From Bacteroidales bacterium (GTDB lineage Bacteria; Bacteroidota; Bacteroidia; Bacteroidales; UBA10428), in NCBI GenBank assembly GCA_016935615.1, contig JAFGQO010000158.1, forward strand, positions 19,090-83,089: DNA of 64,000 bases, read 5' to 3'. The first letter of the stretch is position 1. Every line of letters begins with the position of its first letter. Shown one piece after another: positions 58,823 through 62,946 of the stretch. The notes under the pieces were generated by a model. That model saw nothing but the letters and a program-made list of their open reading frames with translations, made no database searches and had not been told where the DNA came from. The position numbers and the translations under genes were made by a program.

Positions 58823-59788
58823 TTAATTATAAATACCAGAAGCCATTACAGGTGATCCCGGGAATGCAATGGCATTATCTGCCAGACCAATCAGAATTCC
58901 ATCATTCTCAATTACAATAGACTCCATAAGCTTTCCAAACGCATTGTATATTCTGGCAACTTTCTGACCTTTCAGGATCATATCTCCAGGCTTTTTCAGA
59001 AAACGGATAATACCACTGACTGAACTGAGTGGCTTTGCCGAATAACAAAGGATCTTGCCATTGATCTTTTCGGGTAAAGGATAGTTGAACGGTGGTTGCT
59101 CATCGTTTATCATTTCCAAATGCATCAATGTATTAATAACTGCCTGTATACCGGTTTCAATATTCTTTTCATTGATCACATATGATTCCCCCAGCTCAAG
59201 TGTCAGGGCGTTTACTCCCTGCTCAATAAGATTATGAGTTAGGGAAGAAGAAATTTCATCAGTATCCTGAATAATTAGCAATCCCGATGATAAAGCCAGT
59301 TCCTGAATATCTTTCTTACGCGAATCATTGAGAATAGGATCAATCAGAACATAGGGTATTGATTTATTCCAGTCATTATGAAGATCAATAACAAAATCGG
59401 GATTGGTTTCCATAATAAACGAAAAGATCCGTGAAGCTATTCTTTGAGCAAGAGTACCTCTTTCGTTTCCCGGAAAGGAACGATTCAGATCTTCTTTTGT
59501 AAAGGCTATGCTTCGTGATACCATTTCAAAGCCAAAAGGATTCAATAAAGGAAAGGCATGTAAACTTCCGCGAAGCAGTTTGTTCTTTAAACGTTTGAAT
59601 ATTTCCTGAACAATAACGGTCCCTCCTATCTCATCTCCGTGCATACAGGCTGTTAACCATATTGTTTCTCCTTTTTCCGGACTTATTAATGACATATAGG
59701 GAATCCGTCGCTTGGACAGATCCGATCCTGTTAGTACCTTGACAAAGGAGTAATTGATACGATTTCTGCATTCGGAATTCATGTTCAA
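58823..59788 (-). CDS. Succinylglutamate desuccinylase/aspartoacylase-family metallohydrolase
   Basis: TIWLTACMHGDEIGGTVIVQEI, DLNRSFPG, PDFVIDLHNDW; Zn-ligand motifs HGDE and DLH. Confidence 0.9.
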   Translation of the reverse strand: MNMNSECRNRINYSFVKVLTGSDLSKRRIPYMSLISPEKGETIWLTACMHGDEIGGTVIVQEIFKRLKNKLLRGSLHAFPLLNPFGFEMVSRSIAFTKEDLNRSFPGNERGTLAQRIASRIFSFIMETNPDFVIDLHNDWNKSIPYVLIDPILNDSRKKDIQELALSSGLLIIQDTDEISSSLTHNLIEQGVNALTLELGESYVINEKNIETGIQAVINTLMHLEMINDEQPPFNYPLPEKINGKILCYSAKPLSSVSGIIRFLKKPGDMILKGQKVARIYNAFGKLMESIVIENDGILIGLADNAIAFPGSPVMASGIYN

Positions 59789-59944
59789 AAGCGTTTTGAA
59801 TTGATGTCAAAACTACTGCTTTACTTAATACCGGATATATTGTATACAGGGATTTTAATTCTTTTTTAATTTCAGTTTCATGCAATATTAATTTCATTGC
59901 ATCATCTTTGCCTCCGAATTTATAAATAGGAGACATTCGTATTC

Positions 59945-60106
59945 ATGAGAAAATTTGCGATCATTATCGTTGTCCTCGCACTATCAGTAGCTTTCATCTC
60001 ATGTTCTGCCAAAAAGAGTGTAAGCAAAGCACAAAACCCCGAATCTGAACAGGAACAAAATGATAATCTTTTAGATGAATCATATGATGATTCTGCTGAT
60101 TGGTAA
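59945..60106 (+). CDS. Small lipoprotein (53 aa)
   Basis: Hand translation: MRKFAIIIVVLALSVAFISCSAKKSVSKAQNPESEQEQNDNLLDESYDDSADW*; lipobox FISC; acidic tail. Confidence 0.7.
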   Translation: MRKFAIIIVVLALSVAFISCSAKKSVSKAQNPESEQEQNDNLLDESYDDSADW

Positions 60107-60367
60107 GCACAGATCCCGGTTCATATGGTCGGTCTGTTTCAGATCGGTTATCAAATCCTTATACAATTACTATCTGCAAAAAAATAAAAATATTGCCTGC
60201 AGTATTACTTCCATGGCATGGTATCATTGTTTGTATCAAAAAATAAACAGCAACAAACCATATACAGGAATTTTCATTTCATAATAACTCGATATCTATT
60301 TTAATGATCGAATTGAAAAAAACATTATAAAAACTTAATTATCAATACAATAAAAAGAAATTAGGTC

Positions 60368-62332
60368 ATGAGAAAAACAAATGGAACAACACATAAAAAA
60401 AAGAACGGCAAACAAATACAGAACTCCTTTGGCCCGGTAAACAATCTGGAAGAATTTTTACAGCCGGACTGGTGGCGAAGAATTTTCAATTCCATGTATT
60501 TAAAAACCGATGCGGATGTTGTCGAAGATAAAAGCATTACAGCTTTTGAACTTGATATGTTCACCAACATGCTGGATTTATCCAAAGAGCATGTTATTCT
60601 TGATCTGGCATGCGGACAAGGGAGGCATACTCTGGAACTGTCACGAAGAGGTTTTAACAATGTATTTGGTATGGACCGCTCACATTATCTTATCAACAGG
60701 GCAAAGCAAACCAATCTGACCGAGGGTTTATCAGCAAATTTTAAGGAAGGAGATGCAAGAAAATTACCATATCCTGTTGATACATTTGATGTTGTAATGA
60801 TATTGGGCAATAGCTTCGGCTATTTTGAAAGTGTTGATGATGATTTAAAAATTCTGAAAGGCGTTCTCAGGGTTCTGAAACCAAAAGGAAAATTTTTATT
60901 GGATGTTGCCGATGGTAATTTTCTAAAAAAGAACTTCAATCCCAGGAGTTGGGAATGGATTAACAAAACTCATTTTGTCTGTCGGGAACGCTCCCTTGCA
61001 AACGATAACGAACGCCTGATATCCCGTGAAGTAATCTCGAATACAAAAAAAGGAGTAATTGTTGACCAGTTTTATGCCGAACGTCTTTACACAAAGGAAA
61101 AACTTACCGACATACTCCGGAAAGCCGGATTTACAAACATTATGTTTCACAATGAATACAGCACCGATTCCATAAGAAATCAGGATCTGGGAATGATGGA
61201 AAGACGCATTATTGTAACTTCTGAAGCAATTAAGGAATGGACTCCTGTAAAACAAAAGCTGACAGAAGTTAAGAATGTGGCTGTTTTACTGGGTGATCCA
61301 AGTAAGGCAGATATTGTAAAACCGGATACTGTTTTTGATGAGGACGATTACAACACGATACAGCAACTTAAAATTGCTCTGAGCTCGCTGAAAAATTACA
61401 AATTCATTTATATGGATAACCACGATCAGCTCATCAGTAATCTGGTAAAACTGAAACCTCAGATCGATTACGTTTTGAACCTGTGCGATGAAGGTTTTAA
61501 TAACGATGCAAGAAATGAATTGCATGTACCTGCTTTGCTCGAGATGCTGAAAATCCCCTATACCGGTTCAAATCCTCAATGTCTTGCATTTTGTTATGAT
61601 AAATCTCTGATTCGTGGTATTGCAAAAGAAATGGATGTGCCCGTCGCGGATGCGTTTTATATTAAACCCGAAGACAATGTTTTTGAAATGAACATTGAAT
61701 TTCCGGTTATTGCCAAGCCAAATTTCGGTGATTCCAGTTTTGGCATTACACAAAAGAGTGTAGCATATACTATTGCTGAATTAAATGATGCCATCATTAA
61801 AACCAGGGAAAAGTTTGGTTACGATAAACCTATTTTGGTTGAAGAATTCCTTTCAGGAAAGGATCTTACGCTGGGTATAATTGGTAATCCTCCCGAATCA
61901 TATACAGTGCTGCCAATTGTTGAAGAAGATTATTCTCAACTTCCGGATGATCTGCCGAAAATATGCGGTTACGAAGCAAAATGGCTGCAAGATTCACCAT
62001 ATTTTCATTTGTTAAGATCAATACCTGCGGATATTAATACGGGAACAAAAAAAATGATCGTTGAATTAAGCCTTAAACTTGCAGAAAGGTTGGAATGCCG
62101 AGATTACACACGTTTTGACTGGAGACTTGATGGAAACGGAGTTCCAAAATTGCTCGAGGTTAATCCAAATCCGGGCTGGTGTTGGGATGGTCACCTGGCA
62201 AAAATGTCAGATTTAAAAGGTATGAGTTATGCTGATATGCTTCAAACCATCTTAGAGGCCGCTGAACAAAGAATAAATCTTGCCTCTGTAACCAATAGAT
62301 CCATAAAAGAAAATGCAACAGTTCTTGCTTAA
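60368..62332 (+). CDS. Fusion: SAM-dependent methyltransferase (N) plus D-Ala-D-Ala ligase-like ATP-grasp (C)
   Basis: HVILDLACGQGRHTLELSRRGF methyltransferase motif I; C-terminal IPYTGSNPQCLAFCYDKSLIRGIAKE, PVIAKPNFGDSSFGI, LLEVNPNPGW. Confidence 0.92.
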   Translation: MRKTNGTTHKKKNGKQIQNSFGPVNNLEEFLQPDWWRRIFNSMYLKTDADVVEDKSITAFELDMFTNMLDLSKEHVILDLACGQGRHTLELSRRGFNNVFGMDRSHYLINRAKQTNLTEGLSANFKEGDARKLPYPVDTFDVVMILGNSFGYFESVDDDLKILKGVLRVLKPKGKFLLDVADGNFLKKNFNPRSWEWINKTHFVCRERSLANDNERLISREVISNTKKGVIVDQFYAERLYTKEKLTDILRKAGFTNIMFHNEYSTDSIRNQDLGMMERRIIVTSEAIKEWTPVKQKLTEVKNVAVLLGDPSKADIVKPDTVFDEDDYNTIQQLKIALSSLKNYKFIYMDNHDQLISNLVKLKPQIDYVLNLCDEGFNNDARNELHVPALLEMLKIPYTGSNPQCLAFCYDKSLIRGIAKEMDVPVADAFYIKPEDNVFEMNIEFPVIAKPNFGDSSFGITQKSVAYTIAELNDAIIKTREKFGYDKPILVEEFLSGKDLTLGIIGNPPESYTVLPIVEEDYSQLPDDLPKICGYEAKWLQDSPYFHLLRSIPADINTGTKKMIVELSLKLAERLECRDYTRFDWRLDGNGVPKLLEVNPNPGWCWDGHLAKMSDLKGMSYADMLQTILEAAEQRINLASVTNRSIKENATVLA

Positions 62333-62379
62333 ATCCATAGGTATTAAGAATTCTTGAATTTCTGAAATACTTCAAACTT

Positions 62380-62946
62380 GTGTATTTATTAAATAAAATC
62401 AAAGCCGTTAATAAGGTTTATGAACAACTGGAAAAGCATAATTCTAACTTCAGAATAAAATCCTGCCTTTTCTGTAAACCTGATTGTGGAGAATGCTGCT
62501 TAACAAATCATATTGAAGCTACGGTGCTTGAATTCCTGCCTGCTGCATACAATCTTTATTTGTCATGTGAGTATGAAAGTATACTTGAAGCTATTGACAA
62601 CAAAATTGATGAAATATGTGTATTTTATAATCCATTTTCCCGGGAAGGTTTTTGTTCAGACTATAATAACAGAGGCATGGTTTGCAGGTTATTCGGATTT
62701 GCTGCAAAAACAAATAAAAAAAACGAAAAAGTACTGGCTACATGCAAACACATAAAATCTCTCATACAACCTGAGAAATTTAAATCAAGTATTTTATATG
62801 CTCCTGAGATGTCTTCTTATTATATGAAGTTGTATTGTATTGATCCCTGGCTTGCAACATTGCATATGCCGATTAACAAATCTATCAGGAAAGCTATTGA
62901 AATTGTTGCTATGCATTTTCAATATAAAAAGAAAAAAATGGCTTAA
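62380..62946 (+). CDS. YkgJ-type cysteine cluster protein (GTG start)
   Basis: CLFCKPDCGECC ... GFCSDYNNRGMVCRLFGF ... CKHIKSL. Confidence 0.75.
   Translation: MYLLNKIKAVNKVYEQLEKHNSNFRIKSCLFCKPDCGECCLTNHIEATVLEFLPAAYNLYLSCEYESILEAIDNKIDEICVFYNPFSREGFCSDYNNRGMVCRLFGFAAKTNKKNEKVLATCKHIKSLIQPEKFKSSILYAPEMSSYYMKLYCIDPWLATLHMPINKSIRKAIEIVAMHFQYKKKKMA

Follow-up and report, generated by a model that had tools for sequence, protein, structure and literature searches.

A methyltransferase–ATP-grasp fusion shared by bacteria and archaea and its co-occurring AstE-like hydrolase: candidates for the synthesis and turnover of a small methylated amide

In RimK/RimB and in the cyanophycin system of CphA1, cyanophycinase and dipeptidase, ATP-dependent enzymes form amide bonds that dedicated hydrolases break again (PMC12239564, PMC10206079). 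NmbA (PDB 9ri2), the bacillithiol N-methyltransferase, methylates an amine nitrogen, and its authors found no complete BSH pathway in archaea (PMC12719100). The locus analysed here lies in a 64,000-nucleotide stretch of DNA from Bacteroidales bacterium (the whole stretch is called the window) and encodes a class I SAM methyltransferase (MT) joined to a D-Ala-D-Ala ligase (Ddl)-like ATP-grasp, next to a zinc hydrolase of the AstE/aspartoacylase family (Table 1). Like the RimK/RimB and cyanophycin systems it pairs a ligase with a hydrolase, but those systems use another ATP-grasp subfamily, lack an MT and yield protein or polymer products. No description of the fusion was found in the literature, a search that did not reach the amidoligase survey of 2009 to which PMC12239564 refers; that survey excepted, the family is undescribed so far as the literature searched shows.

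Table 1. Positions in the window of the fusion gene, its domains and the other genes discussed
Feature	Position	Strand	Basis and remarks
Bifunctional class I SAM methyltransferase / Ddl-like ATP-grasp ligase (fusion)	60368..62332	+	654 aa; Pfam/NCBIfam, relatives, AF2, Foldseek
MT domain of the fusion	60476..61147	+	residues ~37-260; Pfam, PDB match NmbA
Ddl-like ATP-grasp domain of the fusion	61265..62275	+	residues ~300-636; PF07478, Foldseek, invariant columns
Substrate-side motif EVNPNPGWCWDGH of the ATP-grasp	62156-62194	+	residues 597-609
AstE/aspartoacylase-family Zn amide hydrolase (predicted)	58823..59782	-	PF24827; ORF listed to TTG 59788
Small lipoprotein, 53 aa	59945-60106	+	lipobox-like ISCS motif, read directly
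YkgJ-type CxxCxxCC protein	62380..62946	+	PF03692; membership doubtful
Genuine ddl of the same genome	27913-29112	-	Ddl signatures SGEHEVSL, NEINTLPGFT

The preliminary description of this DNA had proposed the MT–ATP-grasp fusion and a divergent AstE-like hydrolase, and both genes were found as open reading frames at the positions given there, with their Pfam domains above cut-off. Residues 77-174 of the fusion match Methyltransf_25 (PF13649; E 1.9e-19, 70.6 bits against a cut-off of 27), and motif I, DLACGQGRH (residues 79-87), is conserved among relatives, as is characteristic of a class I SAM methyltransferase. Residues 440-630 match Dala_Dala_lig_C (PF07478; E 4e-24, 85.7 bits against a cut-off of 24), and Foldseek aligned this half with the Ddl fold (E 5e-21, TM (target) 0.78), so that profile and fold both place it in the Ddl-like ATP-grasp superfamily. 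In the AF2 model (mean pLDDT 81) the individual domains appear well modelled, while the pTM of 0.53 leaves their mutual arrangement unsettled. The fusion is not an assembly artefact, since it forms one open reading frame without internal stops and is conserved over its full length in at least 80 other loci.

In the PDB, the MT half matches NmbA best (E 2.4e-21, residues 37-258); the next MT follows at 4.4e-13. The two proteins are only distantly similar; they share the class I SAM MT fold, but NmbA is a stand-alone enzyme of bacillithiol-making bacteria that acts on bacillithiol, whereas the MT studied here was joined to a ligase in the loci that our first survey found and also occurs in archaea. 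The genome of the window encodes a separate NmbA-like MT as well. Because the nearest PDB relative is an amine N-methyltransferase, a methylated amide is a reasonable product; to our knowledge, a class I MT sequence by itself cannot separate N-, O- and C-methylation.

In Ddl the substrate side of the ATP-grasp is the side holding D-alanine. The fusion has the ATP-grasp fold and the catalytic ATP/Mg residues in common with Ddl (PF07478, TIGR01205) but differs on this side, where it carries an invariant NPNPGWCWDGH: W539 occupies the place of the last Tyr of the Ddl motif YxAKY and CWDGH replaces TSxS, both changes being invariant in the family, and neither that Tyr nor the Ser after PG is present. 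This correspondence of positions is one we take from phmmer alignments and established knowledge of Ddl. The NCBIfam D-alanine–D-alanine ligase models align to residues ~342-634 at about half of their cut-offs and fall below both (118.6 versus 243 and 113.9 versus 245.65). Among 35 diverse sequences, about one quarter of the positions of the fusion are invariant, in both halves; they include D79, C82-R86 and D103 in the MT and K412, K450, S457, E492, K538, R582, D584, E597 and N599 in the ATP-grasp. An acidic cluster (D310, D315, D324, D326 and D327) is invariant too. Residues for ATP and SAM that are kept, together with changed substrate residues that are themselves invariant, argue that the fusion is probably an active ATP-grasp ligase with a specificity unlike that of Ddl, and not a decayed Ddl. 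The earlier suggestion that the ligase is unlikely to serve peptidoglycan synthesis is supported in that it is not the peptidoglycan Ddl: it has low Ddl scores and altered substrate residues, and the separate ddl gene was indeed present with Ddl signatures.

To survey the family, representative genomes of GTDB were scanned with a single sequence; at least 581 stretches matched, of which we kept the best 80. Nearly all of these 80 span essentially the full fusion at 62-80% identity, and their hosts belong to Bacteroidota, Planctomycetota, Atribacterota, Aminicenantes, Zixibacteria, TA06, Chloroflexota, Jordarchaeia and others; named carriers are Cyclobacterium lianum, C. jeungdonense, C. qasimii and Membranihabitans marinus. 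Fusions from Bacteroidota and archaea are about 60-65% identical across 620-plus residues. The gene is present in 10 genomes of the window's family and missing from 13, and it was found in 3 of 296 other genomes sampled from the phylum, in 20 of 161 genomes of one planctomycete order and in 43 of 228 genomes of one archaeal, Asgard-type phylum that contains a Jordarchaeia genome. In a tree, the fusions cluster partly by phylum, with archaeal sequences intermixed with bacterial ones. We infer that this patchy distribution reflects a mix of old inheritance, loss and transfer. A few pairs of fusions (L053/L069, L045/L052) were left uncounted as transfer events, as they look like mis-binned contigs. 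No match was obtained for carriage of the fusion on plasmids, and no riboswitch was found upstream of it in nine loci or in the window stretch.

Standalone matches to the ATP-grasp half, about 50% identical, occur in two archaeal genomes; in one of them (G876) the match shares a contig with a full fusion. At archaeal locus L246:6317-9662 a 373-aa homologue of this half stands beside a B12/radical-SAM-like protein, a full fusion being on the same contig, and at L245 the ATP-grasp-only match adjoins the same radical-SAM gene.

The hydrolase probably starts at the ATG at 59782, the upstream TTG at 59788 apparently not being used. It matches AstE_AspA_cat (PF24827) with E 1.1e-26 (94.1 bits against a cut-off of 25), and its zinc-binding and catalytic motifs HGDE, DLHND and ELGE are invariant among 10 relatives, which together are the hallmarks of this catalytic family. 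All equivalog scores remained below cut-off (DoeB 64.2 versus 402.7, AstE 15.7 versus 305.65, aspartoacylase 24.4 versus 180). The nearest folds of its model are 3cdx, DoeB and CphZ, a hydrolase of cyanophycin dipeptides; the substrates that DoeB and CphZ cleave are amides of small amino acid derivatives. The hydrolase has the AstE/AspA zinc-hydrolase fold and the conserved metal ligands in common with CphZ and with DoeB/EutE, the N-acetyl-diaminobutyrate deacetylase, but is only about 15-20% identical to them in structural alignments, and its DoeB score is, as noted, below cut-off.

Relatives 43-61% identical to the protein of the window were treated as the hydrolase clade. A member adjoins the fusion in four loci, divergently in the window and L033 and co-directionally in L049 and L060. 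The clade was found in 8 of 50 fusion-bearing genomes; since the other 42 lack it, the hydrolase is optional to the fusion. The clade is rare: in the window's family it was present in 4 of the 10 genomes with the fusion versus none of the 13 without, and, seed genomes aside, it was absent from about 590 sample genomes (296 of Bacteroidota and 293 of Planctomycetota). We also searched for the hydrolase first, in the planctomycete order and the archaeal phylum mentioned above, each chosen since it contains a known fusion carrier. All 12 planctomycete genomes with the hydrolase carried the fusion (Fisher p about 3e-13), as did all four archaeal ones (Fisher p 1e-3). Three of the 16 genomes, two planctomycete and one archaeal, had been known carriers beforehand, and the other 13 were new. 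Because the two genes are neighbours in none of these 16 genomes, physical linkage does not explain the pattern. The p-values overstate the evidence, as genomes within each group are related by shared ancestry; a better case comes from the co-occurrence being spread across Bacteroidota, TA06, Planctomycetota and archaea. Pairwise divergences of the fusion and the hydrolase also correlate (Mantel r 0.46, p 0.01, 10 genomes). The likeness to RimK–AstE-like pairings, drawn in the preliminary description, is supported for a ligase with a matching hydrolase, which is nested within the presence of the fusion across phyla and domains; it is not supported for RimK itself, whose profile (PF08443) matched only the ddl region of the genome and not the fusion ligase. 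In several planctomycetes (L145:5909-8777, L147:5638-8463 and L233-L236) the gene for the AstE-like enzyme forms a conserved row with L-2-hydroxyglutarate oxidase-like and CGGC-domain genes, often followed by a gene for a ~790-aa protein.

Lack of conserved neighbours had been named beforehand as grounds for abandoning the proposed system. The hydrolase is conserved, but most other neighbours are not, and besides the hydrolase none was conserved across phyla at ortholog-like identity and adjacency; the fusion therefore looks self-sufficient. The lipoprotein and YkgJ-type genes are present as described, but the former had no match in any other fusion locus examined, and the latter adjoins the fusion in just three related Bacteroidales-type loci, those of the window, L034 and L035/L004, where it lies downstream. 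A DUF2934-like gene, which had also been linked to the system, was not a neighbour in other fusion loci. We consequently rejected all three as members. Aldo/keto reductases near seven loci were discarded as partners, being distant paralogues (about 25-35% identical) outside the Atribacteria group, and so was a 317-aa neighbour in L032/L003, which looked like an AstE relative, having been a seed of its own profile, but is a calcium/sodium antiporter. Elsewhere in the window, a large ORF (51960-55844) resembling a hybrid two-component regulator precedes a GH88/GH76-like hydrolase gene (55855-57087) and a convergent gene for a polysaccharide lyase family 14-type protein (57070-57909), a segment (51960-57909) that is a probable polysaccharide utilisation region.

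Relatives of the window's genome contain a conserved operon of a KamA-family aminomutase, two tandem Ddl-like ATP-grasps and, in most cases, a small GNAT (L153:5247-9077, L152, L154-L157, L160-L164 and L175), of which we found no description in the literature searched. Its ATP-grasps are about 30% identical to the C-terminal half of the fusion, but it has a radical-SAM aminomutase and an acetyltransferase in place of an MT. One Bacteroidales-type genus of the window's family has a slot, bordered by a deoxyhypusine-synthase-like gene and a GNAT gene, that is occupied by the fusion in most members and by the KamA operon in another. This sharing of a slot suggests, but does not prove, interchangeable functions. 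Within the family the operon was found in none of the 10 fusion-bearing versus 5 of the 13 fusion-lacking genomes (p 0.046); strict mutual exclusion was rejected, as genome G384 has both. In two fusion-bearing relatives (L177 and L178) a KamA gene lies beside genes for a ~280-aa acetyltransferase-like and a Na+/solute-symporter-like protein, an arrangement that, with the genes named by eye from their sequences, seems to resemble the N-epsilon-acetyl-beta-lysine (ablAB) layout.

Our preferred reading, which we hold with somewhat better than even confidence, is that the fusion is an N-methyltransferase/amide synthetase making a small methylated amide and that the AstE-like enzyme is its dedicated hydrolase. 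The fusion would suffice by itself to make a small soluble metabolite: in one order or the other, its MT would methylate a small molecule and its ATP-grasp would form an amide bond between that molecule and a partner. The AstE-family zinc enzyme encoded next to it would break the amide for turnover or recycling. This reading builds on what is observed, namely the domains and their fold, cofactor motifs that are intact, a sequence almost invariant across phyla, and the co-occurrence; from these we infer N- rather than O-methylation, an amide rather than an ester, the substrate of the hydrolase and the biological role. Two themes of the genomic context, ion and osmotic genes and a set of agmatine and deoxyhypusine-synthase genes, give weak clues to the role. 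The product may be a compatible solute and the fusion a one-gene osmoadaptation module spreading by transfer and loss, a possibility we regard as real though doubtful. Genes for CorA, MgtE, Na+/Ca2+ and CPA2 antiporters, a CitMHS-type transporter and trehalose phosphatase recur beside the fusion or the hydrolase, but every transporter association is limited to a few lineages, with different families in each. The slot shared with the KamA operon is consistent with an osmolyte, yet G384 carries both occupants; and marine isolates (Cyclobacterium, Membranihabitans) carry the fusion, but some fusion-bearing genomes appear to be of freshwater or groundwater origin.

In another reading the ATP-grasp would couple a (methylated) amino acid with a polyamine derived from arginine or agmatine, and the AstE-like enzyme would be the amidase. 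In about five lineages (a Bacteroidales-type genus, L063, Zixibacteria L065, KSB1 L107 and archaeal L262/L264/L266) a deoxyhypusine-synthase-family gene lies no more than five genes from the fusion, where a rough count predicts about 0.4; which lineages are independent is our judgement, and the rate used for the prediction is an assumption. Three of these lineages have a pyruvoyl arginine decarboxylase and two an agmatinase, and the acidic cluster with W604/W606 could hold a cation. Most fusion loci, however, lack deoxyhypusine-synthase, decarboxylase and agmatinase genes, and the deoxyhypusine-synthase-family gene found in archaea seems to be of the ordinary kind; we consider a polyamine partner unlikely. 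A low-molecular-weight thiol or redox cofactor, for which the MT would use a cysteinyl amine as NmbA does, would fit the nearest solved MT and the many hosts that appear to belong to lineages of sediment or sulfidic sites. It fits poorly with the fusion in archaea, where no complete BSH pathway was found (PMC12719100), with its presence in cultivated marine Bacteroidota and with annotated neighbours that include no thiol gene, and we judge such a product improbable. Modification of a protein or peptide, by methylation and amino acid ligation that the hydrolase reverses, seems very improbable: ATP-grasp ligases with reversal enzymes do act on proteins, as in RimK/RimB (PMC12239564), but the ATP-grasp of the fusion is Ddl-like, no neighbour besides the hydrolase recurs across phyla, the one small gene of the window is not conserved, and AstE-family enzymes of known function use small amides.

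An enzyme so little changed between Bacteroidota and archaea, with surroundings that differ in almost every lineage, points to a shared small molecule, the co-occurring hydrolase offers a second, independent handle on that molecule, and the named cultivated carriers make the fusion testable. It is conceivable, at somewhat less than even confidence, that one fused enzyme and a dedicated AstE-family hydrolase handle an unreported N-methylated amide, possibly an osmolyte or a polyamine conjugate, that would serve many bacterial phyla as well as roughly one fifth of an Asgard-type archaeal phylum.
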